The translations under genes and the position numbers were made by a program. DNA of 64,000 nt. It comes from Massilia sp. Root133 (GTDB lineage Bacteria > Pseudomonadota > Gammaproteobacteria > Burkholderiales > Burkholderiaceae_D). The notes under the pieces were generated by a model, which worked only from the letters and a program-made list of their open reading frames with translations, was not told the DNA's origin and searched no databases. This document shows, one piece after another, positions 11,286-56,396 of the stretch (positions are counted from its first letter, which is position 1; every line of letters starts with the position of its first letter). The stretch spans positions 187,370 through 251,369 of the forward strand of contig NZ_LMEW01000032.1 of assembly GCF_001426525.1 (NCBI RefSeq), read 5' to 3'.

Positions 11286-12089
11286 TCAAGGCGAGCGCTT
11301 GTAGACGCGCACGTAGTCGACCAGCATCTGCTGGGGGAACGCGGTCGTCGCGTCCGGGTTGCCGGGCCAGGCACCGCCGACGGCCAGGTTCAGGATCATG
11401 AAGAACGGGTGCTCGAACACCCAGTCGCCCGTGACGGTGTCGGGCCGCGCCGTGTGGTACAGGATGCCGTCGCGGTACCAGCGGATCTCGCGCGGTTCCC
11501 ATTCGACGGCGTAGACGTGGTAGTCGTCGGCATACATCCCCTTGTCGAGCCGCTGCGGCTTGCCGATGGCCTTGGCGCCGCTGTAGCCGGGGCCGTGCAG
11601 CGTGCCGTGGACGAGGTCCGGCTCGCGGCCGATGTTTTCCATGATGTCGATCTCGCCGCAGCGGGGCCAGCCGGCCTGGCCGATGTCGGCCCCGAGCATC
11701 CAGAACGCGGGCCAGATGCCCTGCCCGCGCGGGATCTTGATGCGCGCCTCGTAGCGGCCATGCGTGCGCTCGACCTTTCCCGCAGTCTTGATGCGCGCGG
11801 AGGTGTAGTGGCGTCCGCCGTGGTCTTCCTTGCGTGCTTCGATGACGAGATTGCCGCCATCGACACGCACGTTGTCGGGCCGGTCCGTATAGAACTGCAG
11901 CTCCTGGTTGCCCCAGCCGTTGCCGCCCGTCTCCGGGACCCATGCCGTGCGGTCCAGCGTGCGGCCGTCGAATTCGTCGTGCCAGTCCAGTACCCAGCCG
12001 GGCGGCTGTGTGAGCGTGGTTTGCGCTTGGGCCGCAGTCCACGGAGCAAGGAAAACGGCAAGCACGGTGGCGATTCGTAAAGTGGACAT
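11286..12089 (-). CDS. Secreted glycoside hydrolase family 16 beta-glucanase (laminarinase/licheninase type)
   Basis: Endo-beta-glucanase of 267 aa with a signal peptide at about residues 1-22 (cut near AQAQ). The GH16 catalytic motif is E146-I-D148-I-M-E151 in 'CGEIDIMENIG': nucleophile, helper Asp and acid/base, with the extra Met (beta-bulge form) seen in laminarinases. Supporting stretches are 'WVLDWHDEFDG' at the N-terminus and 'FFMILNLAVGG' near the end. GGAGA precedes the ATG at 12089. Its promoter has TTGACA and TATATT 18 bases apart, followed by a LacI-type operator at 12102-12115. It is divergent from the TonB-dependent receptor gene and shares the operator region. Role: first extracellular cut of beta-1,3 or mixed-linkage glucan. 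Confidence 0.93.
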   Translation of the reverse strand: MSTLRIATVLAVFLAPWTAAQAQTTLTQPPGWVLDWHDEFDGRTLDRTAWVPETGGNGWGNQELQFYTDRPDNVRVDGGNLVIEARKEDHGGRHYTSARIKTAGKVERTHGRYEARIKIPRGQGIWPAFWMLGADIGQAGWPRCGEIDIMENIGREPDLVHGTLHGPGYSGAKAIGKPQRLDKGMYADDYHVYAVEWEPREIRWYRDGILYHTARPDTVTGDWVFEHPFFMILNLAVGGAWPGNPDATTAFPQQMLVDYVRVYKRSP

Positions 12090-12101: not shown

Positions 12102-12115
12102 TGGAAACGTTCCCA
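12102..12115. promoter_or_regulatory. LacI-family operator in front of the GH16 gene
   Basis: TGGAAACGTTCCCA, a near-perfect palindrome 13 bases ahead of the GH16 start and just downstream of its -10 element. It matches four other sites in this locus. Confidence 0.8.
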
Positions 12116-12249: not shown

Positions 12250-12282
12250 TGGAAACGTTTCCAGAGATTGGAAACGATGTTG
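12250..12282. promoter_or_regulatory. LacI-family operator (full site plus extra half site) in front of the receptor gene
   Basis: TGGAAACGTTTCCA at 12250-12263 is a perfect 14-base palindrome, followed six bases later by a second half site TGGAAACGATG (12270-12280). Together they lie between the promoter and the start codon at 12318. Confidence 0.82.
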
Positions 12283-12317: not shown

Positions 12318-15290
12318 ATGCATTACCCGAAGGCAAACCAAAAACTGATGAGCCTGGCTGTCGCGAGCGCCTGCGCCGCCCTGATCCCGGCCTACGCCCA
12401 GACGACCGCGCCCGAAGACAGCCGCGGCGGCGACATCCCGACCACGTCGATCCAGCAGGTCACCGTCACGGGCCTGCGCCAGTCGCTGGCCTCGTCGCTG
12501 AACCTGAAGCGCCAGTCGGACGGTATCGTCGACGGCATCGTGGCCGAGGACATCGGCAAATTCCCCGACACGAACCTGGCCGAATCGCTGCAGCGCATCT
12601 CGGGCGTGTCGATCGACCGCGTGAACGGCGAAGGCCAGAAGATCACCGTGCGCGGCGTGGGTCCCGACTTCAACATGGTGCTGCTGAACGGCCGCCAGAT
12701 GCCGACGTCGAACCTGGGCGACCTGAATGGCCGCTCGTTCGACTTCTCGAACCTGGCGTCGGAAGCGATCTCGCAGCTGCAGGTCTACAAGACCAGCCGC
12801 GCCGAGACGCCGACCGGCGGCATCGGCGCCACCGTCAACGTGATCACCGCGCGTCCGCTCGACAAACTTGGCACGTATTCGAGCATCGGCATCAAGGCCG
12901 TGCACGACACGTCGAACAACAACCTGCCGGGCGACGTCAAGGCCAGCACCTCGACCACGCCGGAATTCTCGGGCATCTATTCGACGACGTCGAAGGATGG
13001 CCACTGGGGCCTGGGCGTGTCGGCGAGCTACCAGGAACGCAACCTGGGCTTCAACCAGGCGTCCGTCGGCAACGGCTGGAAGGGTCCGTTCCGCGGCGAC
13101 GAGAACAACTGGGGCACGATCCCGCAGCCGGGTACCGCCGGCTCGGAAAACATCACGAACCGTCCCAAGCCCGGCGACATCTACCAGGTGCCGCAGAACC
13201 TGAACTACAGCATGACCGGCGTGAAGCGCCAGCGCACCAACGGCCAGTTGACCCTGCAGTGGCAGCCGGTCAAGGAACTGACGACCACCCTCGACTACAC
13301 GTACTCGGAAAACAAGCTGCAGACGAAGCGCAACGACGTCTCCGCCTGGTTCAACTTCGGCGCGTCGGCGTCGTCGTGGACCAACGGCCCGATCGCCGCG
13401 CCGCTCGTCTACACGGAATTCATCCCGGCCGGGAACAGCGACATCGCGATGGGCGGCGCCGACTTCGCCACCAAGACGCAGAACAAATCGCTCGGCTTCA
13501 ACGCCCAGTGGCGTGCGACGAAGGACCTGAAGCTCGAGTTCGACGCGCACCGTTCGACCGCGGAATCGAAGGCGGACAGCCCGTTCGGCTCGAGCAATAC
13601 GCTGGGCACCGCGAGCTTCTCGCGTGGCGACACGACGGCCGATTTCTCCCAGGAGTTCCCGGTCCTGTCGATCAAGGGCGCCGACTTCACGGGCGCGCCG
13701 CAGCAGGTCACCGGTTCCGTCTTCCAGAACGGCTACATGAAGGGCGAGGTCGACCAGCTCCAGTTCAAGGGCCGCCTGCGCATGCTGGAAGCGTCGAACC
13801 TGAACTTCGGCATCGGCACCGTCGAGGTCAAGAACCGCTCCGCGTTCTCCACCCAGCAGCGCGACGCCTGGACCGGCGCGACCAAGCCGTCCGACTACCC
13901 GAGCAGCCTGTGGCACGCCGACACGATCCGCCAGTACTTCGACCAGCTGGCCGGCAGCCAGAACCCGAACCTGTTCAACACCTTCTACACCTTCAACTTC
14001 GCGCAGGTGCGCGACGTGGTGTCGAAGGCGTCCGGCCTGCCCGCGCTGTACCTGCCGAAGAACACGTACGACACCGACCAGCGCACCGGCGAAAAATCGA
14101 AGAGCCTGTACCTGCAGTTCAACACGGACTGGGATACCGCGCTGCCGATGCACACCGCGATCGGCGTGCGCTACGAAAAGACCGACGTCGTCTCGACCGC
14201 GCTCGTGCCGGCGGCCACCGCCATCACGATGGTCTCCGCCAACGAATTCCCGGTCACGTTCGGCGCCCCGACGTTCACCACGCTGACCGGCAAGTACCAC
14301 CACCTGCTGCCGTCGGTCGACTGGGACATGGACCTGCGTGACGACATGAAGGTGCGCGCGAGCTATGGCGAGACCATCGGGCGTCCGCGCTACGACCAGA
14401 TCGCCGGCGGCCAGATCCTGAATACGCTGGCGCGCGTCGACGGCGGCACGGGCTCGCAGGGCAACCCGGCGCTGAAGCCCGTGAAGTCGAAGAACTTCGA
14501 CCTGTCGTGGGAGTGGTACTACGGGAAGGACAGCTTCTTCTCCGTGAACGCGTTCTATAAAGACCTGGAGAATTACGCGGGCCAGTCGAAGATCGACGCG
14601 ACGCCGTTCAACCTGCACACCCCGGTGGGCGGCGCGCTGTGGAACGAAGCGTCGGCCGCCGGCTGCGGCACGGACCCGGCCTGCATCCGCAACTACATCT
14701 TCAAGAATCACCCGACCGCCCCGGGCGTGACGGTGACGGGCGTGGACAGCAGCGGCAACCCGACCGGCAACATCGTCGGCCAGCCGGGCGATCCGGTGGC
14801 GCACTTCCAGATCACGACGTTCTCGAACCAGAAGAAGGCAAGCCTGAACGGCCTGGAATTCAATCTCCAGCACATGTTCGGCAACACCGGCTTCGGCATC
14901 TCGGCGAACTACACGTACGTGCACTCCGGACTGCGGTACGATAACGGCAGCGTGGGCGAACAGTTCGCACTGGTCGGCCTGTCGAACTCCGCGAACCTCG
15001 TCGGCATCTACGAGAACGACAAGTGGAACGTGCGCGCGGCCTACAACTGGCGCGGCGAGTTCCTGTCGTCGACGTTCGACGGCGCGGGGCCGAACCCGAA
15101 CTACGTGGAGCCGTACGGCCAGCTCGACCTGTCGGTCGGCTACAACGTCACGCCGAAACTGGTCGTGCAGTTCGAAGCCATCAACCTGACGAACGAGACG
15201 AGCCGCGTCCACGGACGGACCACGCAGCAGGCGCTGTACGTGACGCAGACCGGGCCGCGTTATATGCTGGGGGCACGCTACAAGTTCTAA
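12318..15290 (+). CDS. TonB-dependent receptor (carbohydrate uptake type)
   Basis: Outer-membrane active transporter of 990 aa. A signal peptide ends near residue 29 (AYAQ); a TonB-box-like stretch 'QQVTVTG' follows, then the plug domain ('EDIGKFPDTNLAESLQRISG', 'RVNGEGQKITVRGVGP') and a 22-strand barrel closing with the usual aromatic C-terminus 'LGARYKF'. The long form with 'GIVAEDIGKFPDTN' is that of the large receptors which bring oligosaccharides across the outer membrane in Caulobacter, Xanthomonas and relatives. The start at 12318 has AGAGGAG in front; the open frame begins earlier, but that part is leader DNA with promoter and operator. Divergent GH16 glucanase and shared operators indicate beta-glucan oligosaccharides as cargo. 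Halogenase genes follow on the same strand. Confidence 0.93.
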   Translation: MHYPKANQKLMSLAVASACAALIPAYAQTTAPEDSRGGDIPTTSIQQVTVTGLRQSLASSLNLKRQSDGIVDGIVAEDIGKFPDTNLAESLQRISGVSIDRVNGEGQKITVRGVGPDFNMVLLNGRQMPTSNLGDLNGRSFDFSNLASEAISQLQVYKTSRAETPTGGIGATVNVITARPLDKLGTYSSIGIKAVHDTSNNNLPGDVKASTSTTPEFSGIYSTTSKDGHWGLGVSASYQERNLGFNQASVGNGWKGPFRGDENNWGTIPQPGTAGSENITNRPKPGDIYQVPQNLNYSMTGVKRQRTNGQLTLQWQPVKELTTTLDYTYSENKLQTKRNDVSAWFNFGASASSWTNGPIAAPLVYTEFIPAGNSDIAMGGADFATKTQNKSLGFNAQWRATKDLKLEFDAHRSTAESKADSPFGSSNTLGTASFSRGDTTADFSQEFPVLSIKGADFTGAPQQVTGSVFQNGYMKGEVDQLQFKGRLRMLEASNLNFGIGTVEVKNRSAFSTQQRDAWTGATKPSDYPSSLWHADTIRQYFDQLAGSQNPNLFNTFYTFNFAQVRDVVSKASGLPALYLPKNTYDTDQRTGEKSKSLYLQFNTDWDTALPMHTAIGVRYEKTDVVSTALVPAATAITMVSANEFPVTFGAPTFTTLTGKYHHLLPSVDWDMDLRDDMKVRASYGETIGRPRYDQIAGGQILNTLARVDGGTGSQGNPALKPVKSKNFDLSWEWYYGKDSFFSVNAFYKDLENYAGQSKIDATPFNLHTPVGGALWNEASAAGCGTDPACIRNYIFKNHPTAPGVTVTGVDSSGNPTGNIVGQPGDPVAHFQITTFSNQKKASLNGLEFNLQHMFGNTGFGISANYTYVHSGLRYDNGSVGEQFALVGLSNSANLVGIYENDKWNVRAAYNWRGEFLSSTFDGAGPNPNYVEPYGQLDLSVGYNVTPKLVVQFEAINLTNETSRVHGRTTQQALYVTQTGPRYMLGARYKF

Positions 15291-15313: not shown

Positions 15314-15410
15314 GTCCCCGCGAAGGCGGGGACCCAAGTTTGCAGGCTACGGACGCAAAATTGGATTCCCGCCTGCGCGGGAAGTCGTTTCCGGCGGTGC
15401 CGGAAACGAC
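15314..15410. repeat. Three consecutive perfect hairpins (REP/BIME-like element)
   Basis: GTCCCCGC/GCGGGGAC with a 4-base loop (15314-15333), TTCCCGC/GCGGGAA with a 4-base loop (15366-15383), and a 12-base-pair stem with a 3-base loop (15384-15410). They lie between the receptor and the first halogenase, where they may end or attenuate transcription and protect the receptor mRNA 3' end. The first two resemble the scattered intergenic 'CCCCGCGAAGGCGGGG' repeats of many proteobacterial genomes. Confidence 0.85.
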
Positions 15411-15521
15411 GACACGGGCGTACGGTCAGTCTGCCGTAATCGGTTTCAGCGTATAAAAAGTTGTTCCAAAAGCAGCATTTTCGGGTAGACTCATGCGGCC
15501 CACCGGAAAAAGGAAGCTGTG

Positions 15522-17054
15522 ATGAGTAAACCCATCGAACACGTCGTGGTGGTCGGCGGCGGCTCCGCGGGCTGGCTGACGGCCGGCGTCCTCGCGGCCG
15601 AACACCCGCGCCTGACCGTCACGCTCGTCGAATCGCCGGGCGTGCCGCCCATCGGCGTCGGCGAAGGCACGTGGCCGTCCATGCGCGAGACCCTGCAGCG
15701 CATCGGCGTCTCAGAAGCCGCGTTTTTCCGCGAATGCGACGCCGCGTTCAAGCAGGGCTCGCGCTTCGACCGCTGGGTCGACGGCAGCGACGGCGACGTC
15801 TATTTCCACCCCTTTTCCCTGCCCCAGGGCTATGGCGAGGCGAATCTCGTCGCGGCCTGGCAGCGCGCGCACCGCGGCGTCCCGTTCGCGGACCTCGTCA
15901 GCTACCAGCCGCATTTATGCGTGCAGGGCCGCGCGCCGAAGCAGCCGCAGACGCCGGAATACGCCGGCGTCGCCAACTACGGTTATCACCTGGATGCCGG
16001 CAAATTCGGCGTCTTCCTGCAGAAGCACTGCGTGGACAAGCTGCGCGTACGCCACGTGCTGGCCCACGTCGTCGACATTCTTTCGACCGACGACGGCGAC
16101 ATCGCGGCCTTGCGCACGCGCGAGGCCGGCCCCGTCGAGGGCGACCTGTTCATCGACTGCACGGGCATGGCCTCGCTGCTGCTGGGCCGCCACTACGGCG
16201 TGCCGCTCGTGTCGCAGCGCGACGTGCTGTTCAACGACCGCGCCCTCGCCGTGCAGGTGCCCTATCCAACGGACGACACGCCCATTGCATCGCAGACGAC
16301 GTCCACCGCCCAGTCGCACGGCTGGACCTGGGACATCGGCCTGCCCGCGCGGCGCGGCGTCGGCTATGTGTATTCCAGCGCCCACGTCGACGACGACGCG
16401 GCGGAGCAGACAATCCGCGCCTATCTTGCGTCCACCGGTATCACTGGCGAGATTCCCGCACCGCGCAAGATCGCGTTCGACCCGGGCTACCGCGCCCGCT
16501 TCTGGGAACGGAACGTGGTCGCGATCGGCCTGTCCGCCGGGTTCATCGAGCCGCTGGAAGCGTCCGCGCTCGCGCTCGTGGAACTGTCCGCGGGCTGGCT
16601 GGCGGACGACCTGCCCGCCACGCGCGCGCAGATGGACACGATCGCCGCGCGCTTCAACGAGGCCTTCACGTACCGGTGGGAGCGCATCATCGACTTCCTG
16701 AAGCTGCACTACGTGCTGTCGAAGCGCACCGACACCGATTACTGGCTCGATCACCGCGCAGCGCGCACGCAGTCGCCGCGCCTGCGCGAGCTGCTCGCGC
16801 TGTGGCGCACGCGCGCGCCGTCGCGGCGCGACTTCCCGCGCATCGAAGAGATCTTCCCGTCCGCGAGCTGGCAATACATCCTGTACGGGATGGGCTTCCG
16901 GCCCGAATTGACGGCGCGCGCATCGGACCTGCCCGAGCGTGCCGACCAGTATTTCCGCGAGGCCGCGCGGCTCACCGCCCGCATGCTGCCGCAGCTGCCC
17001 GCGAACCGCGAGATGCTCCACCACATCCGCCAGTTCGGCATGCCGCCGGGCTAG
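15522..17054 (+). CDS. Flavin-dependent halogenase, tryptophan-halogenase family (first copy)
   Basis: FADH2-dependent halogenase-like protein of 510 aa. The FAD-binding GGGSAG motif is at residues 12-17, and the second 'GVGEGTWPS' motif follows the first strand-helix unit. The catalytic Lys that forms chloramine in PrnA/RebH is K77 ('AAFKQG'), and the catalytic Glu is E346 ('FIEPLEAS'). The diagnostic WxWxIP motif is altered to W268-T-W270-D-I272-G273, so Pro is Gly. AGGAA precedes the ATG at 15522. It starts the block after the TonB-dependent receptor; SapC follows 44 bases later. Related enzymes of xanthomonads and sphingomonads sit beside such receptors, and some have been shown to brominate free indoles, but native substrates are unknown. 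Target is therefore open. Confidence 0.88.
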   Translation: MSKPIEHVVVVGGGSAGWLTAGVLAAEHPRLTVTLVESPGVPPIGVGEGTWPSMRETLQRIGVSEAAFFRECDAAFKQGSRFDRWVDGSDGDVYFHPFSLPQGYGEANLVAAWQRAHRGVPFADLVSYQPHLCVQGRAPKQPQTPEYAGVANYGYHLDAGKFGVFLQKHCVDKLRVRHVLAHVVDILSTDDGDIAALRTREAGPVEGDLFIDCTGMASLLLGRHYGVPLVSQRDVLFNDRALAVQVPYPTDDTPIASQTTSTAQSHGWTWDIGLPARRGVGYVYSSAHVDDDAAEQTIRAYLASTGITGEIPAPRKIAFDPGYRARFWERNVVAIGLSAGFIEPLEASALALVELSAGWLADDLPATRAQMDTIAARFNEAFTYRWERIIDFLKLHYVLSKRTDTDYWLDHRAARTQSPRLRELLALWRTRAPSRRDFPRIEEIFPSASWQYILYGMGFRPELTARASDLPERADQYFREAARLTARMLPQLPANREMLHHIRQFGMPPG

Positions 17055-17098
17055 CGGAGACACCACCACAACACCAATAACGAGAGAGACTACCACCG

Positions 17099-17812
17099 AT
17101 GGCCAACCATGCACCCCTGAACAACGTCGACCACAAGAACCTGCGCGTGGTCACCACCCGCGGCGCGGCGTACGGCGACGCCGTGATGTCGGCGCTGACC
17201 TTCCCCGCCGAATTCCGCGACCTGCAGGCCTGCTACCCGATCGTCTTCGCGCAGGACGGCAACGGCGGCTACGACGCGCTCGCATTACTCGGCTTCGAAC
17301 CGGGCGAAAACCTGTTCCTCGGCCCGAACGGCTGGGACGCGCCGACGATCCCGCTGACCATCGAACGCCAGCCGTTCATGATCGGCCGCAGCGGCGAGGA
17401 ACTGTCCGTCCACGTCGACCTGGACAGCCCGCGCGTGCGCGACGGCGGCATCGAGGGCGAGGCGCTGTTCCTGACCTATGGCGGCACGAGCGAATACCTG
17501 GAACGCATCAACTCCGTGCTGCGCACCATCCACGAAGGCCTCGCCGCATCGCGCGCGTTCGTCGCCGTGCTCGTCGAGCTGGAACTGATCGAATCGTTCG
17601 TGCTGGACGTGGAACTGGACGACGGCTCACAGAACCGCCTGGCGGGCTTCTACACGATCAACGAAGACCGCCTCGCGAAGCTGACGGGCGAGCAGCTCGC
17701 GCGCCTGCACGACAACGGCTATCTGCAGGCCATCTACATGGCGGTGGCGTCGCTGGCGCAGTTCCGCGGCCTGATCCAACGGAAGAATCGCGCCAATGAC
17801 GTCCTCCGTTAA
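17099..17812 (+). CDS. SapC family protein
   Basis: Protein of 237 aa of the SapC family (named after a Campylobacter S-layer locus; biochemical role unknown). The family core 'YPIVFAQDGNGGYDALALLGF' spans about residues 44-64, and 'NLFLGPNGWDAPTIPLTI' follows. No signal peptide or membrane helix is visible, so it is probably cytoplasmic. The last 17 bases overlap the start of the cupin gene, meaning coupled translation. SapC genes are regularly found next to tryptophan-type halogenases and TonB-dependent receptors; here it stands between the two halogenases. What it binds or does in this setting cannot be derived from sequence. Confidence 0.85.
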   Translation: MANHAPLNNVDHKNLRVVTTRGAAYGDAVMSALTFPAEFRDLQACYPIVFAQDGNGGYDALALLGFEPGENLFLGPNGWDAPTIPLTIERQPFMIGRSGEELSVHVDLDSPRVRDGGIEGEALFLTYGGTSEYLERINSVLRTIHEGLAASRAFVAVLVELELIESFVLDVELDDGSQNRLAGFYTINEDRLAKLTGEQLARLHDNGYLQAIYMAVASLAQFRGLIQRKNRANDVLR

Positions 17813-18806
17813 GCATGTCCGCGAAGTAGCGGCAGTCGACGGCAAGCTGCCGGACGAGATGCTGCGCGCGACGCGGCCCTACATCGTACGCGGCCTCGCG
17901 GCCGACTGGCCCCTCGTGCAAAGAGGACGCGCGTCCGCGGAAAGCGCCGACGCCTACCTGCGCCGGTTTTATCGCGACGCGACCGTCAACGCGATGCTCG
18001 GCCCCCCGCAGATCGGCGGCCGCTTCTTCTACAACGACACGATCACGGGCTTCAACTTCCACAACGTGCGCGGGCGGCTCGACCAGGTGCTGGACGAACT
18101 GGCCGAGCACCGCAAGCGGCCGGATCCCGGCGCGATCTACGTGGGCTCGACGTCGATCGACGGCGCCCTGCCCGGCCTGCGCGCCGACAACGACCTGGAC
18201 CTGGGCGGCCGCAACCCGCTGGCCAGCATCTGGATCGGCAACCGCACCGTCGTCGCCACGCACTACGACCTGCCCGACAACATCGCCGTCGTCGCGGTCG
18301 GCGAACGGCGGTTCACGCTGTTCCCGCCCGACCAGCTGAAGAACCTGTACGTCGGCCCGCTCGATTTCAACCCGGCCGGCCAGGCGATCAGCCTCGTCGA
18401 CGTGCGCAACCCGGACTTGGAGCGCTTCCCGCGCTACGCCGAGGCGCTGCAGCATGCCGAAGTGGCCGAGATGGGACCGGGCGATGCGCTGTTCATCCCG
18501 TCGATGTGGTGGCACCACGTGGAAGCGCTGTCCGCGTTCAACGTGCTCGTAAACTACTGGTGGCGCCAGTCCCCGGACTACATGGACACGCCGACGAACG
18601 CGCTGATGCTGGCGATCCTGACGATGCGCGACCTGCCGCCCGAGCAGCGGCGCGCGTGGCAGGACATCTTCCGCCACTACATCTTCGAGCCGGACCCCGC
18701 GAACCTCGCGCACATTCCGGAGAATGCGCGTTATGCGCTGTCGCCGCTCGACGAGGACGGCGCGCGCGTCCTGCGCGGCCAGCTGCTGCGCCGGATCAAC
18801 CGATAA
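17796..18806 (+). CDS. JmjC/cupin-like protein (probable Fe(II)/2-oxoglutarate oxygenase, FIH-like)
   Basis: Protein of 336 aa with a double-stranded beta-helix of the Cupin_8/FIH type. The iron-binding triad can be seen: H156 and D158 in 'THYDLPDN', and a distal His in 'WWHHVEA' (H240 or H241). 'RFTLFPPDQLKNLYVGP' between them is the usual strand and loop of the family. Such enzymes hydroxylate amino-acid side chains of proteins or peptides using O2 and 2-oxoglutarate. The ATG overlaps the end of sapC by 17 bases, and the second halogenase follows 57 bases later. Position between two halogenases suggests it acts on the same molecule, which is inference. Confidence 0.87.
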   Translation: MTSSVKHVREVAAVDGKLPDEMLRATRPYIVRGLAADWPLVQRGRASAESADAYLRRFYRDATVNAMLGPPQIGGRFFYNDTITGFNFHNVRGRLDQVLDELAEHRKRPDPGAIYVGSTSIDGALPGLRADNDLDLGGRNPLASIWIGNRTVVATHYDLPDNIAVVAVGERRFTLFPPDQLKNLYVGPLDFNPAGQAISLVDVRNPDLERFPRYAEALQHAEVAEMGPGDALFIPSMWWHHVEALSAFNVLVNYWWRQSPDYMDTPTNALMLAILTMRDLPPEQRRAWQDIFRHYIFEPDPANLAHIPENARYALSPLDEDGARVLRGQLLRRINR

Positions 18807-18863
18807 GACTAAAGACTACGACGCGTCTAACGACGACAAAGCGTACAAGCCAGGAGTAGAGAC

Positions 18864-20375
18864 ATGGAGAACAACAACCAACAAGGGCGCGGCCGCCCGA
18901 TCCGCCGCGTCGTCATTGCCGGCGGCGGCACCGCCGGCTGGATGGCCGCGGCGGCGCTGGCGCGCACCCTCGGCAAGGTCGTCGACATCAAGGTCGTCGA
19001 GTCGGACGACATCGGGGCCGTAGGCGTGGGCGAGGCGACGATCCCGAGCCTCGTGCATTTCCACCGCCTGCTCGACATCGGCGAACAGGAATTCATGGCC
19101 GCCACGCAGGCCACGTTCAAGCTGGGCATCAGTTTCGAAAGCTGGCGCGCGCGCGGCGAGGACTACATCCACTCGTTCGGCATGACGGGCACGGACCACT
19201 GGACGGCCGGCTTCCAGCACTTCTGGCTGAAGGGCCGCGACCGCGGCCTCGCCAGCGACTACGGCGACTACTGCCTGGAACTGGTCGCGTCGCAGGAAAA
19301 GCGCTTCGGCCACCTGCCGAACCAGGGCATCAACTACGCCTACCACCTGGACGCGACGCGCTACGCCCGCTACCTGCGCCGCTTTTCCGAACACTTCGGC
19401 GCCGAGCGCATCGAAGCGAAGATCGCGAAGGTCGACACCGATCCGGCCACGGGCCACATCACCGCGCTCGTGCTGGATGCCGGCACGCGCGTCGAGGCCG
19501 ACCTGTTCATCGACTGCACGGGCTTCCGCTCGCTGCTGCTGGGCCAGACGATGGGCGTGGAGTACGAAGACTGGTCGCAATGGCTGTTCAACGACTGCGC
19601 CATCGCCGTGCAGACGGAATCCACCGGCCCGGCCGTGCCGCTGACGCGCTCGATGGCGCACGACTGGGGCTGGCAATGGCGCATCCCGCTGCAGCACCGC
19701 ACGGGCAACGGCGTCGTGTTCTCCAGCCGCTACACGGACGAAGCCACGGCACGCGCCACGCTGCTCGGCAACATCGAGGGGAAGGTCCTCACGGAGCCGC
19801 GCGTGATCCGCTTCACGCCGGGCCAGCGCAAGAAGGTCTGGGTCGGCAACTGCATCGGCCTGGGTCTCGCGAGCGGCTTCCTGGAGCCGATCGAATCGAC
19901 GAGCATCCACCTGATCCAGCGCGGCATCGTGCGCCTGCTGCAGACGTTCCCGACTTACGGCATCCAGCAGGCGGACGTCGACGAATTCAACGTGCAGACC
20001 GAGGAAGACATCCGCACGATCCGCGACTTCATCATCCTGCACTACAAGGTCACGAACCGGCGCGACACGCCGTACTGGCACGACGCGGCATCGATGCCCG
20101 TGCCGGACAGCCTGCAGCACCGCATCGACCTGTTCCGCGGCGGCGCCCGCGTGTTCCGCGAAGGGAACGAACTGTTCGCGGAAAACTCGTGGGTGCAGGT
20201 GATGGTGGGCCAGGGCCTCACGCCCGAACGCTGGCATCCGAGCGCGGACCTGATGGGCGACGACGAACTGCGCGGCTTCCTGGACGGCATCAGGAACGGC
20301 GTGCGCCGCACCGTCTCGCAACTCCCGCCGCACCAGCAATACGTGGAACGCTACTGCCCCGCGGGCAAACCGTGA
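18864..20375 (+). CDS. Flavin-dependent halogenase, tryptophan-halogenase family (second copy)
   Basis: FADH2-dependent halogenase of 503 aa. FAD motif GGGTAG at residues 20-25; catalytic Lys K86 ('ATFKLG'); the diagnostic halogenase motif is complete here as W270-Q-W272-R-I274-P275, preceded by W268; catalytic Glu E344 in 'FLEPIEST'. All hallmark residues of PrnA/RebH-type chemistry are thus present, unlike in the first copy. The start codon ATG at 18864 has CAGGAG eleven bases ahead. It follows the JmjC-like gene closely, and its stop codon overlaps the GTG of the acyltransferase (GTGA), so the two are translated together. No flavin reductase gene is nearby; a housekeeping one would have to supply FADH2. 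Confidence 0.92.
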   Translation: MENNNQQGRGRPIRRVVIAGGGTAGWMAAAALARTLGKVVDIKVVESDDIGAVGVGEATIPSLVHFHRLLDIGEQEFMAATQATFKLGISFESWRARGEDYIHSFGMTGTDHWTAGFQHFWLKGRDRGLASDYGDYCLELVASQEKRFGHLPNQGINYAYHLDATRYARYLRRFSEHFGAERIEAKIAKVDTDPATGHITALVLDAGTRVEADLFIDCTGFRSLLLGQTMGVEYEDWSQWLFNDCAIAVQTESTGPAVPLTRSMAHDWGWQWRIPLQHRTGNGVVFSSRYTDEATARATLLGNIEGKVLTEPRVIRFTPGQRKKVWVGNCIGLGLASGFLEPIESTSIHLIQRGIVRLLQTFPTYGIQQADVDEFNVQTEEDIRTIRDFIILHYKVTNRRDTPYWHDAASMPVPDSLQHRIDLFRGGARVFREGNELFAENSWVQVMVGQGLTPERWHPSADLMGDDELRGFLDGIRNGVRRTVSQLPPHQQYVERYCPAGKP

Positions 20376-21526
20376 CGACGGCGGCCGGCGGCTTCGCCGA
20401 CACCAGGCGGCACTACCCCGTCCTCGACGGCCTCCGCGGCGTCGCGGCGCTGACGGTCGTCGCGTTCCACCTGTGCGAAGCGCATGCCGTGAACCGCTTC
20501 GCCCAGGTGATCAACCACGGCTACCTGGCCGTCGACTTCTTCTTCCTGCTGTCCGGCTTCGTGATCGGCTACGCCTACGACGACCGCTGGCGCCGCATGT
20601 CGCTGGGCGAATTCTTCCAGCGCAGGCTGATCCGCCTGCATCCGATGATCGTCGTCGCGATGGTCATCGGCGCGCTGATGTTCTATTTCCAGGCCGGGCC
20701 GCTGTTCCCGATGATCGCGGACACACCGCTGTGGCGCGTACTGCTGATCATGGTCATCGGCATGACCCTGCTGCCGGTGCCGCCGTCCATGGACCTGCGC
20801 GGCTGGGCCGAAATGCATCCCCTGAACGGCCCGGCGTGGTCGCTGTTCTTCGAATACGTGGCGAACGTGCTGTACGCGCTGGTGCTGCGGCGGCTGCCGA
20901 ACCGGATCCTCGGCGCGCTCGCGCTGCTGGCCGGCGCGGCGCTCGTCCATTACCTGCTGACGGGGCCGAACGGCGACGTGATCGGCGGCTGGTCGCTGGA
21001 CCCCGTCCAGTTCCAGCTCGGGTTCACGCGCCTGGCCTACCCGTTCGTCGCGGGACTGCTGCTGTCGCGCGTCGTGCGCCCGGGCCGCATCGCGCACGCG
21101 TTTCCGGTCAGCGCCGCGATCCTGTTCGCCACGATGGCCTTGCCGCGCATCGGCGGCCCCGGGACCTTGTGGATGAACGGCCTGTACGAAGCCGCCTGCA
21201 TCGTCGCCGCGTTTCCAATCGTCGTCTGGCTCGGCGCCAGTGCCCAGGCCAGCGCGCGCACGGCCCGCGTGTGCGCCGCGCTGGGCGGCCTGTCATATCC
21301 GCTCTACATCATCCACTACCCGTTCGTGTACACGTACACCGCGTGGACGAACGAGCACCACGTGTCGTTGCGCGACGGCCTGCCCGTCGCCGCGGCCACC
21401 TTCGCCGCCTGCGTCGCGCTGGCGTGGCTGCTGCTGAAGTACTACGACGAGCCGGTGCGCGCCTGGCTCACGCGGCGCTGGATGGACCGCAAGCCGGCGG
21501 TCGCCGCGCCGGCCATGAACGGCTGA
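20372..21526 (+). CDS. Acyltransferase family 3 membrane protein (OafA/NodX type)
   Basis: Integral membrane O-acyltransferase of 384 aa with about ten helices. The N-terminal motif 'YPVLDGLRGVAALTVVAFH' with R-G and a following His (residues 15-33) is the family signature, and 'HPLNGPAWSLFFEY' and 'SYPLYIIHYP' further on are also typical. Such proteins add acetyl or other acyl groups to cell-surface sugars, antibiotics or lipids. The start is a GTG that overlaps the halogenase stop (GTGA), placing it in the same transcript. A role in modifying the product of the halogenase block or a surface glycan is possible; the substrate cannot be told from sequence. Confidence 0.85.
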   Translation: MTTAAGGFADTRRHYPVLDGLRGVAALTVVAFHLCEAHAVNRFAQVINHGYLAVDFFFLLSGFVIGYAYDDRWRRMSLGEFFQRRLIRLHPMIVVAMVIGALMFYFQAGPLFPMIADTPLWRVLLIMVIGMTLLPVPPSMDLRGWAEMHPLNGPAWSLFFEYVANVLYALVLRRLPNRILGALALLAGAALVHYLLTGPNGDVIGGWSLDPVQFQLGFTRLAYPFVAGLLLSRVVRPGRIAHAFPVSAAILFATMALPRIGGPGTLWMNGLYEAACIVAAFPIVVWLGASAQASARTARVCAALGGLSYPLYIIHYPFVYTYTAWTNEHHVSLRDGLPVAAATFAACVALAWLLLKYYDEPVRAWLTRRWMDRKPAVAAPAMNG

Positions 21527-22308: not shown

Positions 22309-23568
22309 TCAGGCGCTGGTCGCTCCCTGGCGATGCAGGTTCGCATACTTCACGCCGAAGTAGAGGATGAAGCCATAGCAGGCCGCCGGCACGAAGAACG
22401 ACGGCTGCACGCCGATGCGGTCGGCCAGCCAGCCTTGCAGGAACGGCACGATGGCGCCGCCCACGATCGCCATGCACAGGATGCCGGAACCCTGGCCCGT
22501 GTGGCGTCCGAGGCCGTGCAGCGCCATGCTGAAGATCGTCGGGAACATGATCGAATTGCACAAGCCGACGGCGAGGATCGCCCACATCGCGGCCTGGCCC
22601 CGGCCGAAGATCGCGGCCAGCACGAGCGCGATGGCCAGCAGCGCGTTGAACGCGAGCGCCTTGCCGGGGCTGACGACGCGCATGACGGCAAAGCCGATGA
22701 AGCGCCCGATCAGCGCCCCGCCCCAGTACACGCTGACATAGCTCGCCGCCTGCGCCGCCGGCATCCCGGCCACCTGCTGCTCGCCGAGGAAATTGACGAG
22801 GAAGCTGCCGATGCTGACTTCGCCGCCCACGTACAGGAAGATGGCGGCGGCGCCCAGCACGAGATGACGATGATGCAGCGCGGAGCCGACGGCACCGGCC
22901 GCGGGAACGTCTGCCTCCGCATGGTCGACGCGCGGCAGCCGGGCCAGCGCGAACAGTGCGGCGAGGATCGCGAGCGCCGCGGCGAGCGCGAGATACGGTC
23001 CCTGCACGGCAGCCGCCTGGTCGGCCGCGACGGTGCTCGCCCCCGCGAGGATGAGCATGCCGCCCAGCGCCGGGCCCACCGTCGTGCCCAGCGAGTTGAA
23101 TGCCTGCGTGAGCGTCAGCCGGCTCGATGCCGTCGCGGCCGGGCCGAGCACCGTCACGTACGGGTTCGCGGCCACCTGCAGGATCGTGATCCCGGCAGCC
23201 AGCACGAAGAACGCGAACAGGAACAGGCCGTAGCCGCCCTGCGCGGCCGGATAGAACAGCGCGCAGCCCCCGGCCGCGATCAGGAGGCCCGTGACGGCGC
23301 CCTTCTGGTAGCCGATGCGGCGGATCAGCGCGCCGGCCGGCAGCGACACGATGAAATAGGCGCCGAAGAAGCAGAACTGCACGAGCATCGCCTGCAGGTA
23401 GTTCAGCGTGTAGATCGCCTTCAGGTGCGGGATCAGCACGTCGTTCAGCGACGTGAGCAGACCCCACATGAAGAACAGGATCGTGACGATGACGAGCGGA
23501 CCGGTGTTGGTCGCGCGCGCAGTCGATGCCGCGGTCACGGACACGGTCGGGTTGGGGGAAGCTGCCAT
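22309..23568 (-). CDS. FucP/GluP-type sugar MFS transporter
   Basis: Sugar:H+ symporter of 419 aa with 12 helices. '[19 protein letters not shown]' in the first helix and loop, '[19 protein letters not shown]' in the second, and '[13 protein letters not shown]' are the standard signatures of the fucose/glucose/galactose permease branch. AAAGGAG precedes the ATG at 23568. It lies 151 bases behind the GH3 beta-glucosidase on the same strand and is probably transcribed with it, which points to import of glucose released in the periplasm. Confidence 0.92.
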
Positions 23569-23719
23569 GGATTCTCCTTTGTTATGGTTTTGGTGTTCAG
23601 TGCGGGACACGGTCCGATGACGAGCCACGCCGGGATGCGCGCCAGGCAAGCCCGCAGCCGGCCCTTGCCCTCGCAGCGGGCATCGGTGCCGCCGCTGTCG
23701 GCCGGCAGGCGCAAGCCGC

Positions 23720-26230
23720 TTATCGCAGGTCCTCGCATCGGACGGTGGCGGCGCCCACGCTCACGTCGACGTTGCCGAAGGCGGCCGTGAAAACGCCGTC
23801 GCTCGTCACGCGGAACGGCGTGTCGATTCTTGCCAGGTCCGCGCCGCGCGCGCGGAAGCACGCCAGCGGGATCGCGACCTCCTGCCGACCCTTGCCGGCC
23901 AGGCCCGTGAACAGCCTGGTCGCATCCAGCGGCGTGCCGCAGGCGGCGGCGCCGCAGGCCATCGCGATCGTCACCTTGCCGGCGGGCGCCTGCTGCACGA
24001 TCGTGTCGAAGCGCAGCACGCCCTTGTCCGCCAGCGCGGCCGGCAGCGCGAGCGGCTTGCCGCCGTGCGCCTCGAACGCCGCCGGCGCCGTCCACGTGAC
24101 GAGCTTCGCATCCTGCTGCGTCTTGATCTGGGCAATGGCCACCGAGATGCCCGGCAGGCTCGTACCCGCATTGAGGTCGGCGCCCAACGGCTGCACGGCC
24201 GTGCCGCTGACGATCCGCAGCGGGAAGCTCGCGCGATCCGCCTGGCCGTACACCGGATACGTATCGGACGCGCTGCAGCCGCCGGCCGGATACGTCGCAT
24301 CCAGCGTGCCGATATGCGAACGCTGGCCGCGCTTAAGGCCGTAGCCGTACGCGAACAGCGGCGCATAGCCGGCGTCGCCCACGTTCAGCGGCGTCTGGCA
24401 CACGGATTTCGGCCAGGAGAACGACAGCTTGCCCTTGAACTCATAAGGTTTCGCGCCTTTGCCGGTGACGAGCAGGTCCGACACGCCCTTGCCTTCCGTG
24501 CCCGGCAGCCATGCCGCGATGAACGTGTCCGACAGGTTCAGCAAATCGTTCACCCACAGCGGGCGGCCGGACAGGAACACGGTCACCACGGGCTTGCCCT
24601 TGCCGTGCACTTTCTGCAGCACCGCCAGGTCTTCCGGATAGCGGCTCGAATGGCGCAGCGTCCCGGACGGCACGATATCGCCGTCGCCTTCCGCATAGGG
24701 CGCCTCGCCGATCACGGCGATGACGGCATCGAACCTGGCCGGATCCACGGCGGCGGCGTCCGCGCTGTACGTGACGTCCGCGCCGGCCGCCTTCAACCCC
24801 GCGAGGATCGTCTCGGCCTTCGGGAAATCGGCGTTCGTGTTCGCCGTGCCCTGCCACGTCAGCGCCCAGCCGCCGGTCTGGTTGGCCATGCTGTCGGCGG
24901 CCTTGCCGACGACGAGGATGCGCTTGTTCGTGGCCAGCGGCAGCGCCGGTCCTTCGTTCTTCAGCAGCACGAGCGATTCGCGCACCGCGCGGCGGCCCAG
25001 GTCCTTCGCAAGCAGCGCGTCGTCCTTGCCGGCCCATGCGGATTGCGACGGGCGCTTGTCGAACACGCCGGCGCGCAGCTTCACGCGCACGATGCGGCTG
25101 ACGGCGTCGTCGATGCGCGCCATCGGAATACGGCCCGCCTCGACGTCCCTGATCGTATTGGAAATGAAGGCCTTCCAGTCGTTCGGCACCATCACCATGT
25201 CGATGCCCGCGTTGATGGCCTGGGCGCAGCCGTCGTTGCGACAGCCCGGCACTTCGCCGTGTCCGTTCCAGTCCGTGACGACGAACCCGTCGAAGCCCAT
25301 CTTGTCCTTCAGGATATCGGTGAGCATATAGCGGCTGCCGTGCACCTTGCCGTAGTCCTTGCCGGCCGCCACGTCGTTCCATGAATTGAACGAGGCCATG
25401 ACCGTCTGCGCGCCCGCCTCGATGCCGGCGTAGTATCCCTGCGCGTGGATATTCATCATGTCGCGCTCGCTGACCTTCGCGACCCCCATATTGATGCCGA
25501 ACTCCGTGCCGCCGTCGGCCATGTAGTGCTTGATGCTGGCGATGACGTTCGCGTCGTCCTTCAGCGCGCCCTGCAGGCCCGTCACGTATGGACCGGACAG
25601 GCGTCGCACCAGTTGCGGGTCCTCCGAAAAGCTTTCGTAAGTGCGCCCCCAGCGGTCGTCGCGCACGACGGCGACGGTCGGGCCGAACACCCATGCGATG
25701 CCCGTCGCGCGCACGGCCTTGCCCGTCGCGGCGCCGATGGCCTGCACCAATTCCGGGTCGCGCGCCGCGCCGAGGCCGATATTGTGGGGGAACATGGTGG
25801 CGCCGTAGACGTTGTTGTGGCCGTGGACGGCGTCCGTGCCCCAGATCATCGGGACCTTGACCGCCATGTCCGTCGCCATCGAGGCGTCGTAGAACGCGTC
25901 GGCCAGCTTCAACCAGTCGCCGGCGCTTGCGTGCTTGTCGTTGTGCGGCCAGCTGCCGCCGCCGTTCAGCACGGAGCCGAGGTAGTACGTGCGCATGTCG
26001 TCCGGCGTCACGGCCTTGAGTTCGGCCTGCGTCATCTGGCCGATCTTCTGCGCGAGCGTCATGCGGCCGACGATCTCGCGCACGCGCGCCTCGAGGGCGG
26101 CGTCGGGCGCGATCGCGCTCTTCAGGTGCGGCCAGGCCGTGATCTGCGGCGCGGCCGTCGCGCAGAACGCGGCGGCGGCCAGCGCGGACGCGACGGCGAG
26201 CCGGATGTGGCTGGGGCGATGGGTGGTCAT
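23720..26230 (-). CDS. Secreted glycoside hydrolase family 3 beta-glucosidase
   Basis: Retaining exo-beta-glucosidase of 836 aa. Signal peptide at about residues 1-27 (cut near ATAAPQ). Order of domains: TIM barrel (about 55-390) with nucleophile D320 in 'VVTDWNG', alpha/beta sandwich (about 410-630) with '[15 protein letters not shown]', and a C-terminal beta-rich domain (about 670-836) of the kind in xanthomonad and marine exo-1,3/1,4-glucanases. '[14 protein letters not shown]' carries the conserved Lys-His of the sugar pocket. GGAGA precedes the ATG at 26230; the earlier in-frame ATG at 26326 would include the operator. A LacI-type operator lies 41 bases upstream. Likely periplasmic processing of oligosaccharides. 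Confidence 0.93.
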
Positions 26231-26270
26231 GCGGGTCTCCAGGGGCGGTTCGTTATCGTGGGCGGTGGAT

Positions 26271-26284
26271 TGGAAACGATTCCA
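26271..26284. promoter_or_regulatory. LacI-family operator in front of the GH3 gene
   Basis: TGGAAACGATTCCA, palindromic except at the centre. A minus-strand TTGACA (26326-26321) with AATATC 18 bases further lies upstream, so the operator again follows the promoter. Confidence 0.78.
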
Positions 26285-26340
26285 ATCGACCCCGCAGATA
26301 TTGACTGCAAACGCGCGCGCTGTCAATCACCCGCTCTCGT

Positions 26341-27720
26341 TCACAGCCCCCGCAGGAACGTGCGATACCACTTCGCGCTGTCCTTCAGCCGGCGCTCCTG
26401 CGTGGCGTAATCCACGTGCACAAGGCCGAAGCGGCGCAGATAGCCTTCCGCCCACTCGAAATTGTCCAGCAGGCTCCACGCGAAATAGCCTTTCACTGGG
26501 ACGCCATCGGCCACGGCCTGGCGCAGCGCGGCCAGGTGGCGCATCAGGTAGCGTCTGCGTTCGACGTCGCGCACGGCACCGTCGCCCGTCACCACGTCGT
26601 CGTAGCACGAGCCGTTTTCGGTCACGTACAACGGGCCGGGACGGTAGTCGCGGTCGACCCGGGCCAGCAGTTCGGACAGCCCCTGCGGCGCCACGGGCCA
26701 GCCCATTGCCGTGATCTCCCCTTGCGCCGGCAGGATGCGGGCGCCGAGCGGACCGTGGTCCGGATCGTTCGCCACCGTCTCCGGGAAGTAGTAATTCACG
26801 CCGAGGAAGTCGGTCGGCACGGCGATGTCGGCCAGGTCGCCCGGCAGCACGACGGGCGCCGCCTTGCCCACTTGCGCGAGCGTCGCTTCCGGATAGCCGC
26901 GGCCGTACAGCGGGTCGAGGAACCAGCGGTAGCGCAGGCCGTCGTGGCGATCCATCGCGGCGACGTCCTGCGGCGCGGCGCTCGCGGGCCGCAGCGGGTG
27001 CAGGCTGAGCGAGATGCCGGCCTGCGCGCCGGGCACGTTCGCGCGGATCACGGGCACCGCCCTGCCGTGCGACAGCAGCACGTGGTGCGCGACCTGCAGC
27101 GCCGTGCCGAGGTCCGTCAGGCCCGGCGCATGCCAGCCCTCGTAATTGCCGATGATGGCCGTGCACCACGGCTCGTTGTGCGTGATCCAGTGGCCCACGC
27201 GGTCGCCGAGGCGGCGCGTCACCGCGTCGGCCATGTCCACGAACGCGTCGACCGTGTCGCGCGACGCCCAGCCGCCGCGGTCCTGCAGCCATTGCGGCAG
27301 GTCCCAGTGGTACAGCGTGGCCCACGGCTGCAGGCCCCGCTCCAGCATGCCGTCGACGAGGCGGTCGTAGAAATCGAGGCCTTTCGCATTCGGTGTCTCG
27401 CTCACCCCGTCGCAGATGCGCGGCCATGCGATCGAGAAGCGGTAGGCGTTCAGGCCCAGGTCGCGGCCGATGTCGAGGTCCGCCGGCCAGCGGTGGTAAT
27501 GGTCGCAGGCGACCGCGCCGGAGGAACCGTCGCGGATCCTGCCGGGCGTCGCCGCGAACCGGTCCCAGATCGATTCGACCCGGCCGTCCACGGTGCCGGC
27601 GCCCTCGATCTGGTACGACGACGTCGCGCAGCCCCACAGGAAATCGGAGCCGAAGTCGGCGCGCTGCGGCGCCTGCGGTTCCGGGCCGTCGGCGCCCGGG
27701 AAGATATCGTAGGTGGTCAT
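26341..27720 (-). CDS. Glycoside hydrolase family 1 beta-glucosidase
   Basis: Cytoplasmic retaining beta-glucosidase of 459 aa, the normal length for bacterial GH1. The acid/base Glu is E183 in 'THNEPW' and the nucleophile is E368 in 'YVTENG'. 'FLWGCATSSYQIEGA' at the N-terminus, 'YHWDLPQWL' and 'SLLDNFEWAEGY' near the end complete the family set. No signal peptide is seen. There is no good ribosome binding site ahead of the ATG at 27720; translation may rely on a weak purine stretch. A LacI-type operator lies 22 bases upstream. It would split cello- or laminari-oligosaccharides brought in by the transporters. Confidence 0.94.
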   Translation of the reverse strand: MTTYDIFPGADGPEPQAPQRADFGSDFLWGCATSSYQIEGAGTVDGRVESIWDRFAATPGRIRDGSSGAVACDHYHRWPADLDIGRDLGLNAYRFSIAWPRICDGVSETPNAKGLDFYDRLVDGMLERGLQPWATLYHWDLPQWLQDRGGWASRDTVDAFVDMADAVTRRLGDRVGHWITHNEPWCTAIIGNYEGWHAPGLTDLGTALQVAHHVLLSHGRAVPVIRANVPGAQAGISLSLHPLRPASAAPQDVAAMDRHDGLRYRWFLDPLYGRGYPEATLAQVGKAAPVVLPGDLADIAVPTDFLGVNYYFPETVANDPDHGPLGARILPAQGEITAMGWPVAPQGLSELLARVDRDYRPGPLYVTENGSCYDDVVTGDGAVRDVERRRYLMRHLAALRQAVADGVPVKGYFAWSLLDNFEWAEGYLRRFGLVHVDYATQERRLKDSAKWYRTFLRGL

Positions 27721-27741
27721 CGTGATGTGTGTCGTTGTGAT

Positions 27742-27755
27742 TGGAAAGCTTTCCA
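27742..27755. promoter_or_regulatory. LacI-family operator in front of the GH1 gene
   Basis: TGGAAAGCTTTCCA, a perfect palindrome sharing both arms with the other sites but with GC in the centre rather than CG. It is only 22 bases from the start codon. Confidence 0.75.
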
Positions 27756-27765
27756 GAGGCGCCGC

Positions 27766-27794
27766 AAAAAAAGGCGCGCACGCGGCGGCGCGCC
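27766..27794 (-). terminator. Rho-independent terminator of the LacI-type regulator gene
   Basis: On the minus strand, GGCGCGC / GCGCGCC (7 base pairs, 8-base loop, 27794-27773) is followed directly by seven T (27772-27766). It lies 16 bases behind the regulator stop codon and separates it from the GH1 gene. Confidence 0.8.
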
Positions 27795-27810
27795 GGATCG
27801 GGAAGTCGGG

Positions 27811-28839: not shown

Positions 28840-28885
28840 AAACTGTTCCTCAATGCTGTCGATTCGTCCGAAGGATACTGCATTT

Positions 28886-28903
28886 GCCGCCTTCCAAGGC
28901 GGC
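28886..28903 (-). terminator. Hairpin behind the ABC ATPase gene (possible terminator)
   Basis: GCCGCCT/AGGCGGC, 7 base pairs with a 4-base loop, lies 19 bases behind the ATPase stop codon. No T-run follows it on the minus strand, so it may be only a weak or Rho-assisted end. Confidence 0.35.
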
Positions 28904-28921
28904 TTCTCGTCGTTGCCGTGT

Positions 28922-29974
<1,053 letters not shown>

Positions 29975-31782: not shown

Positions 31783-31783
31783 G

Positions 31784-33025: not shown

Positions 33026-33087
33026 GCTGTCTCCGTGATGGCGTCCTGGCGGGGCCGGCGCCTTTTTTATACGTACTCGGCATGCCA

Positions 33088-33101
33088 TGGAAACGTTCCC
33101 A
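33088..33101. promoter_or_regulatory. LacI-family operator in front of the ABC importer operon
   Basis: TGGAAACGTTCCCA, identical to the GH16 site. It is embedded in a wider inverted repeat because CCATGG flanks it on both sides. Confidence 0.82.
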
Positions 33102-39203: not shown

Positions 39204-39603
39204 AGCGGCCGGCCGCGCCGCCGACGCTGTAGCGCCCCGCCCCGAGCAGGGCGATGGCGACGGCGACGCCGAGATACATGCCCTGCAGTTCGAGCGCCCA
39301 GCCGCCCGTGTCGCTCAGGGTGAAGAACTGGCTCGTGTGGACCAGCAGCAGCGCGACGATCATGTTCACGGCCACGACGAGCGCCGCGGCGCGCGTGAAC
39401 ACGCCGAACAGGATCAGCAGCGGCGCGATCACCTCGCCGATGTAAACGAGATAGGCCAGGGCGCCCGGCAGCCCCGCCTTGGCCAGCATGCCGCCGATGA
39501 AGCCGACGCCCCCGATCAGCTTCGACACGCCGTGAAACAGGATCAACACGGCCAGCACGGCGCGCAGGAGCAGCTTGCCGCCATCGTCCATCTGGTTTTG
39601 CAT
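39196..39603 (-). CDS. DoxX family membrane protein
   Basis: Four-helix inner-membrane protein of 135 aa. '[21 protein letters not shown]' and '[21 protein letters not shown]' match the DoxX/YphA family, whose members appear in redox or sulfur metabolism and stress settings without a firm function. AGGAGGGG precedes the ATG at 39603. It overlaps the end of the MHS gene tail to tail. Confidence 0.88.
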
Positions 39604-39667
39604 ATCCCCTCCTGGAGTGAGCACGACTGTATACTCCCATGGTACGCCACCTGAAGAGAACCAGCCG

Positions 39668-56253: not shown

Positions 56254-56396
56254 TGCAATCGTTCCCAATCCGCGCCGCGTCGAATCACTGTCGAGTCCTG
56301 TCCGACTGCTCCTACAATCGCCTGACGCCTGCGCCGATTGTCGGCCCCGGCAGACGGCCTACCATGGCATGTCACGTACCGTTCAAGGAGACGATT

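Follow-up and report, generated by a model that had tools for sequence, protein, structure and literature searches.

A receptor-linked set of halogenase, SapC and JmjC oxygenase genes in a putative beta-glucan utilisation locus of Massilia sp. Root133

Introduction

What substrate could two flavin-dependent halogenases, a SapC family protein and an FIH-like oxygenase have in common when their genes follow directly on that of a sugar receptor? The question is raised by a 64,000-nt stretch of DNA from Massilia sp. Root133 (contig NZ_LMEW01000032.1), called the window below, whose positions serve as coordinates throughout. On its plus strand, between 12318 and 21526, lie in order the genes for a TonB-dependent receptor (TBDR), a halogenase (HAL1), SapC, a JmjC oxygenase, a second halogenase (HAL2) and a membrane acyltransferase. 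Judged from gene order in other genomes, the first five of these are a recurrent module of Pseudomonadota, and it is very probable that they form a dedicated cassette. The reading we lean to, tentatively, is a receptor-dedicated oxidative tailoring cassette set in a beta-glucan utilisation locus under LacI control, the receptor being the leading candidate for the substrate. The parts of this reading differ in strength, the case for a protein or peptide of any kind as the substrate being about evenly balanced while that for the receptor itself is rather doubtful.

Annotations of sugar regulons list halogenase and SapC-like genes beside TBDRs, and the bare association may already stand in databases or journals. 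Among open-licence papers, none joining a halogenase with SapC was found, nor one joining a flavin-dependent halogenase, the term TonB-dependent and Xanthomonas campestris, and two papers found for tryptophan halogenase with TonB-dependent receptor (PMC3377617, PMC11337851) apparently do not concern this association in the parts of their text available. Xanthomonas carbohydrate utilisation loci are described, in the available portion of PMC1790865, as combining TBDRs with sugar genes. The present locus is like them in that a TBDR stands together with sugar genes in a regulated locus, while the tailoring enzymes are an addition of the present locus relative to what that portion describes; the terms halogenase, SapC and cupin are absent from the main text of the paper.

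Composition and conservation of the gene set

The receptor gene (12318-15290) matched TIGR01782, the Xanthomonas/Caulobacter type, at 642 bits against a cut-off of 310. Behind it were HAL1 (15522-17054; PF04820, 384 bits against 21), sapC (17099-17812; PF07277, 223 bits against 28.9), jmjC (17796-18806), which encodes an FIH-like JmjC/Cupin_8 Fe(II)/2-oxoglutarate oxygenase (PF13621, 249 bits), HAL2 (18864-20375; PF04820, 620 bits against 21) and the acyltransferase gene with a GTG start (20372-21526; PF01757, 118 bits), the PF13621 and PF01757 scores likewise being above the curated cut-offs. An earlier note made from the sequence alone had proposed five open reading frames (ORFs) of these families behind the receptor, and all five were confirmed as open on the plus strand. 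The two overlaps described there were also exact to the base: the sapC stop (17810-17812) overlaps the jmjC ATG at 17796 by 17 bases, and the HAL2 TGA (20373-20375) sits inside a GTGA, with the acyltransferase GTG at 20372.

SapC (PF07277) was found in 104 of the 299 Pseudomonadota genomes sampled. When 80 loci picked from the SapC matches listed were examined together with the window and the second module of the same genome (82 SapC loci), the order TBDR-[HAL1]-SapC-JmjC-HAL2 was seen on one strand in 22, nine with HAL1 and 13 without. In 28 loci one or more halogenases shared a same-strand run with SapC, and in 27 of these the run included a receptor; a further three had one of these genes, receptor or halogenase, no more than 6 kb away but outside the SapC run. 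A second set of 80 named loci, several of them short, comprised the best 80 of 587 confirmed matches to the JmjC alignment and therefore leans to close relatives of the window JmjC. In this set the commonest arrangements were TBDR-HAL1-SapC-JmjC-HAL2 (36/80) and TBDR-SapC-JmjC-HAL2 (13/80); TBDR-JmjC alone was seen in six, JmjC alone in two and TBDR-SapC-HAL2-JmjC in one, some loci being cut off. A TBDR was present in 71 of the 80, which included loci of Massilia, Duganella, Xanthomonas, Pseudoxanthomonas, Lysobacter, Roseateles, Catenovulum, Teredinibacter and Kordiimonas. Gene order in relatives, by which the earlier note had proposed to check its five-gene block, was thus kept rather than random in both sets.

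Because the order is kept, the proposal that the block serves one pathway or complex gained support for the receptor, HAL1, SapC, JmjC and HAL2. The same proposal failed for the acyltransferase, which was found in a single one of the 80 named loci (L219, from Telluria antibiotica, at a threshold of 150 bits) and in no more than two of the 82 SapC loci, the window and L048, a locus from the same genus. These counts rule it out as a core part, and from its distribution it looks to be a local, lineage-specific addition to the module. The window genome itself carries nine halogenases and two modules, the second of which (L012) has no acyltransferase and has a DUF6445 gene after HAL2. The module thus reaches well beyond the window, and its membership differs from that first proposed, with the receptor in, the acyltransferase out and DUF6445 optional. 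The special tie to laminarin or to loci with glycoside hydrolases (GH) of families 16 and 3, suggested in the earlier note, proved weak, as GH16 was present in 24, GH3 in 23 and LacI in 24 of the 80 named loci; GH1 was present in 16 and GluP in at most 24, some loci being short.

Linkage of the enzymes to receptors

The position of each enzyme relative to receptors was determined in eight genomes chosen for carrying SapC modules, from the matching rows of each family (receptor, halogenase, JmjC and SapC). Of the 68 PF04820 rows, six (partial, 19-52 bits) were left out, as were three of the 20 PF13621 rows (two partial at 110-116 bits, one at 22 bits), giving 62 halogenases and 17 JmjC proteins. 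The receptor rows above the cut-off numbered at least 136, with one gene split over two rows, and 22 of 25 SapC matches were used. Two other SapC matches lie in receptor clusters (L142 and L160; one T-H1 and one T-J-H2-H1 in the notation below), so that SapC-containing sets are undercounted. Located on the same strand and no more than 6 kb downstream of a TIGR01782 receptor were 51 of the 62 halogenases (0.8 expected), 15 of the 17 JmjC proteins (0.23 expected) and, among the matches listed, 15 of the 22 SapC proteins (0.26 expected). Regardless of strand, 53/62 halogenases, 17/17 JmjC and, among the matches listed, 16/22 SapC proteins clustered with a receptor; conversely, 44 of the 136 receptors had an enzyme in their cluster, again among the matches listed. 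With T for TBDR, S for SapC, J for JmjC and H1 or H2 for halogenases split by Pfam score rather than by tree, the sets seen were T-H2 (9 clusters), T-H1-S-J-H2 (6), T-H1 (3), T-S-J-H2 (3), T-H2-H1 (2), T-H1-S (2), T-J (1) and others. Thus the enzyme sets vary, and the receptor is, by these positions, their usual constant partner.

A wider check covered the best full-length halogenase locus per genome in 15 genomes out of a 150-genome sample of the phylum, 15 further loci with weak, partial halogenase matches only being left out. A TBDR lay within 1.5 kb in eight of the 15 loci (divergent in three), SapC-JmjC was present in two more, and neither was present in five. Among the control genomes, that of Caulobacter vibrioides, judged by single families and not by gene order, also gave matches to SapC, PF04820, Cupin_8 and TIGR01782.

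Halogenases

Both HAL1 and HAL2 retain GxGxxG and the catalytic Lys and Glu, each of these two residues being present in 72 of 73 module-locus halogenases. In the WxWxIP motif the two differ, HAL2 reading WQWRIP and HAL1 WTWDIG, with the Pro replaced in 23 of 26 HAL1 sequences. The nearest solved structure to HAL1 was 2pyx, which we take to be a Shewanella halogenase and which aligned over nearly the whole length (E 1.1e-169), although 2pyx is known as a structure only. It is called an unnamed halogenase from unpublished work in the part of PMC7336383 available.

HAL2 aligned to Xcc4156 (6y1w) over residues 11-503 (E 3.6e-228) and to BrvH (6frl) with E 1.2e-132. The HAL2 of a TBDR-SapC-JmjC-HAL2 module of Xanthomonas cucurbitae scored 1033 bits against 6y1w in an alignment spanning residues 3-508, and because of this alignment Xcc4156 itself very probably belongs to a module of the same type. 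Unlike the module, Xcc4156 and BrvH were published as single enzymes, as far as the available text goes; the main text of PMC5945002 mentions neither 'TonB' nor 'SapC', and that of PMC7336383 does not mention 'TonB'. The available parts of these 2018 and 2020 papers (PMC5945002, PMC7336383) state that the native substrates of the two enzymes are unknown, that indole compounds are brominated while free tryptophan is not accepted, the region that binds the tryptophan backbone being lacking; they also raise the idea of a peptide as substrate, after the example of MibH. The tie of Xcc4156/BrvH-type halogenases to one near-constant partner, the TBDR, opens this substrate question to mass spectrometry.

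Maturases were also considered as an identity for the two proteins. LodB and QhpG are flavoproteins that modify Trp residues of proteins, and hidden Markov models of both gave a weak likeness to HAL1 and HAL2. The NCBIfam scores of 24-27 bits were far below the equivalog cut-offs of 400 (LodB) and 240 (QhpG), and this identity was rejected.

JmjC oxygenase, SapC and DUF6445

The HxD...H motif of the JmjC protein was invariant in 28 of 28 sequences (H155, D157 and H239 in an alignment starting at residue 2). The protein was FIH-like by sequence, and its model (predicted local distance difference test, pLDDT, 92.5) matched FIH (E 1.2e-20) and JMJD5 (TMt 0.82) in a Foldseek search of the PDB, JMJD7 and TYW5 being also among the matches. 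FIH, JMJD5 and JMJD7 are peptide hydroxylases and TYW5 acts on tRNA. Module JmjC shares the HxD...H motif and the fold with FIH and JMJD5 but is bacterial and carries an arginine, R170 in the same alignment, in the place of Lys214 of FIH, which binds 2-oxoglutarate there.

No such relatives were found for SapC, as its model (pLDDT 97.3) gave no match with Z of at least 2 among 996 aligned chains and no Foldseek match at E <= 0.001 in the PDB or BFVD. SapC is regarded here as a putative non-catalytic adaptor. The S-layer locus of Campylobacter fetus has a SapC of the same family (PF07277), and in sapCDEF-type loci type I secretion genes stand beside sapC. In contrast, module SapCs sit behind receptors and form a largely separate branch (3 changes for 29 rows, against a shuffled mean of 24.2). 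An S-layer secretion locus was ruled out for the window, where sapC is flanked by HAL1 and jmjC and not by type I secretion genes.

DUF6445 (PF20043) was found at L012:6312-7157 and in eight other loci, mostly adjoining the module HAL2, HAL1 or SapC. Residues H116, D118, H211 and R229 were invariant in nine sequences, and this HxD...H...R pattern is, we assume, the iron/2-oxoglutarate site motif of prolyl-hydroxylase-like enzymes; DUF6445 is thus a probable further Fe(II)/2-oxoglutarate oxygenase. In the eight genomes, eight of ten full-length copies lay beside module enzymes (one of 11 rows, partial and with stops, was left out). As DUF6445 was present in only 16 of the 299 genomes, it is taken as an optional part of the module. 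One run, at L061:8015-12892, had the order HAL1-SapC-DUF6445 followed by a FecR-like gene, and no TBDR of the TIGR01782 type was found in it.

Proposed mechanism and the receptor as substrate

In the mechanism proposed, HAL1 and HAL2 would halogenate an indole-type ring with consumption of FADH2, O2 and a halide, presumably bromide by analogy with Xcc4156 and BrvH; the JmjC protein would hydroxylate a side chain and SapC would serve as the adaptor. All four were taken to act in the cytosol because their N-termini, by a comparison of hydrophobicity, had no signal-like stretch (best 14-residue mean 0.7-1.4). The receptor N-terminus had a hydrophobic stretch compatible with a signal peptide (best mean 2.3). 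The most economical common substrate would be a polypeptide, in first place the receptor chain before Sec export, and the resulting mark might tune receptor folding, stability or the binding of ligand or phage. In its general form, by which sugar receptors would be halogenated (probably brominated) and hydroxylated before export by cytosolic enzymes used in mix-and-match fashion (HAL1, HAL2, JmjC, DUF6445) under guidance by SapC, this being the native job of Xcc4156/BrvH-type halogenases, the proposal is doubtful; if true, it would describe a novel type of post-translational modification in bacteria. No halogenated outer-membrane transporter is known to us so far, so that a receptor modified in this way would be the first, and sugar uptake as well as recognition by phage or bacteriocins could be affected.

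Some support for the receptor came from phylogeny. A tree built from 124 receptors placed those linked to both SapC and JmjC, 24 in number, almost in one clade (3 changes against a shuffled mean of 22.2), whereas linkage to any enzyme needed at least 17 changes. In four permutation tests of within-genome distances, uncorrected for their number, pairing with the receptor was weak: HAL2 distances followed receptor distances with rho 0.23 (reached in 47 of 2000 permutations) and SapC distances more closely, with rho 0.73 (54 of 2000).

Other results weigh against the receptor as the common substrate. Operon co-inheritance alone would yield the clade just described, and HAL1 and JmjC distances paired with receptor distances no better than chance (983 and 321 of 2000 permutations, respectively). 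No column of the receptor alignment held a diagnostic Trp, His or Asn, that is, one common in enzyme-linked receptors and rare otherwise. W638 was present in 23 of the 24 receptors with SapC and JmjC but is Met in the window receptor, while W518 and W911, present in all 24, were also present in 42-43% of 74 unlinked receptors. Within the genome of the window, the receptor most closely related to the window receptor (G000:C14:75712-78546; L138, L176) has no adjoining enzymes, although enzymes encoded elsewhere might act on it in trans, or it might have no need of them. Since TYW5 acts on tRNA, the JmjC fold is no proof of a protein substrate, and we know of no halogenated or hydroxylated receptor. 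Beyond the receptor itself, nine of the 62 halogenases and, among the matches listed, six of the 22 SapC proteins in the eight genomes had no receptor in their cluster, and 51 of the 82 SapC loci had no module gene nearby; the neighbourhood of these 51 was mixed and, over the nine neighbours scanned, gave no clue to function.

A tag at the C-terminus was considered separately. Work on PyrH suggests, in the part available, a C-terminal Trp as a halogenation tag (PMC9775415). Enzyme-linked receptors ended in Phe in 42 of 50 cases, in Leu in four, in Tyr in four and in Trp in none, with Phe ending 46 of 74 unlinked receptors, and such a tag was rejected.

Alternative explanations

The linkage to receptors could also reflect the cargo imported. 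The enzymes might act on the aromatic part of a glycoside of plants or algae, or of a phenol-decorated oligosaccharide, taken up through the receptor, with GH1 and GH3 freeing the aglycone and the halogenase and oxygenase detoxifying or degrading it, and this is unlikely rather than remote. The receptor is the first gene of most clusters, GH1, GH3 and GluP are neighbours, and the bromination of indole compounds by Xcc4156 and BrvH (available text of PMC7336383 and PMC5945002) would suit such cargo. Against this, cassette loci differ in their content, no more than 24, 23 and 16 of the 80 named loci having GH16, GH3 and GH1, and the relatives FIH, JMJD5 and TYW5 act on macromolecules. A macromolecule other than the receptor, such as a secreted glycoside hydrolase, TonB, a periplasmic partner or another protein of the locus or envelope, is a somewhat less likely target still. 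The arguments on substrate class apply to it as they do to the receptor, and the failure to find a target residue in the receptor alignment is in its favour, whereas the TBDR was the only near-constant companion (71/80), GH16, GH3, GH1, GluP and LacI each being present in at most 24 of the 80 loci (TonB was not among the families scanned).

Most halogenases with this fold take part in making natural products, and the acyltransferase gene adjoins HAL2. Both facts would fit a gene set that tailors a small secreted compound or a ribosomal peptide during polysaccharide feeding, a reading that we nonetheless hold to be improbable. Among 741 small ORFs (20-110 aa, 1.5 kb flanks) in 29 module loci none was conserved as a precursor peptide would be; the largest cluster reached four of the 29 loci and looks like arginine-rich chance frames, and a cluster for a ribosomally synthesised and post-translationally modified peptide was thereby ruled out. 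Similarly, among the 40 most recurrent neighbour clusters, only receptor, halogenase, JmjC, LacI, GH3 and DUF6445 were present in more than a handful of module loci (leaving aside overlapping alternative frames; no search was aimed at synthase genes), and the acyltransferase was in one of the 80 named loci. Thus, of the two readings offered in the earlier note, modification of protein side chains is favoured, its extension to the receptor itself remaining doubtful, and small-molecule tailoring is disfavoured. Least probable of all is that the genes are mere passengers of receptor transcription, encoding for instance general redox enzymes or producers of hypohalite that have no substrate in common. 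Mixed enzyme sets, halogenase-only clusters and the lack of a common target among the findings would agree with passengers, but order and overlaps are kept in distant families and receptor linkage is far above chance.

Operators and neighbouring genes

The receptor gene is preceded, at 12250-12263, by an exact copy of the 14-bp palindrome TGGAAACGTTTCCA, a predicted LacI-type operator to which no strand was assigned, followed by a half-site, TTGGAAACGAT, at 12269, in agreement with the earlier description of the receptor as operator-controlled. With up to two mismatches, six TGGAAACGTTTCCA sites were found in the window against 0.26 expected, a number reached in none of 100 shuffles. The others were at 12102-12115, before a GH16 gene (11286-12089, minus strand) divergent from the receptor gene, at 26271 (GH3, upstream of the likely ATG), at 27742 (GH1), at 33088-33101 before an ORF at 31770-33083, and at 56254-56267, where a second LacI-like ORF begins. 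From the excess of these sites, a LacI regulon for a beta-glucan is likely, and the minus-strand genes at 22309-29016, for a GluP-type sugar transporter, GH3, GH1 and a LacI-family regulator, probably belong to it. The window thus holds a TBDR, carbohydrate-active enzymes and a regulator with common operators, as in a carbohydrate utilisation locus.

In the 231-bp gap between the receptor gene and HAL1, the window scan found no TGGAAACGTTTCCA-like site, and consensus scans found neither a sigma-70-like nor a terminator-like site. The gap holds inverted repeats resembling repetitive extragenic palindromes (15317-15419; repeat search, no strand assigned); the genome contains 81 exact copies of their core, CCCGCGNAGGCGGGNACCCA, and none of a reversed control. 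These repeats probably lie outside the function of the cassette, and with them in between, a single transcript covering receptor and HAL1 is no more than conjectural. Elsewhere in the window, a second, shorter Cupin_8/JmjC-like ORF was noted at 39575-40501, outside any receptor cluster, with 140 bits to the JmjC model and a partial PF13621 match.

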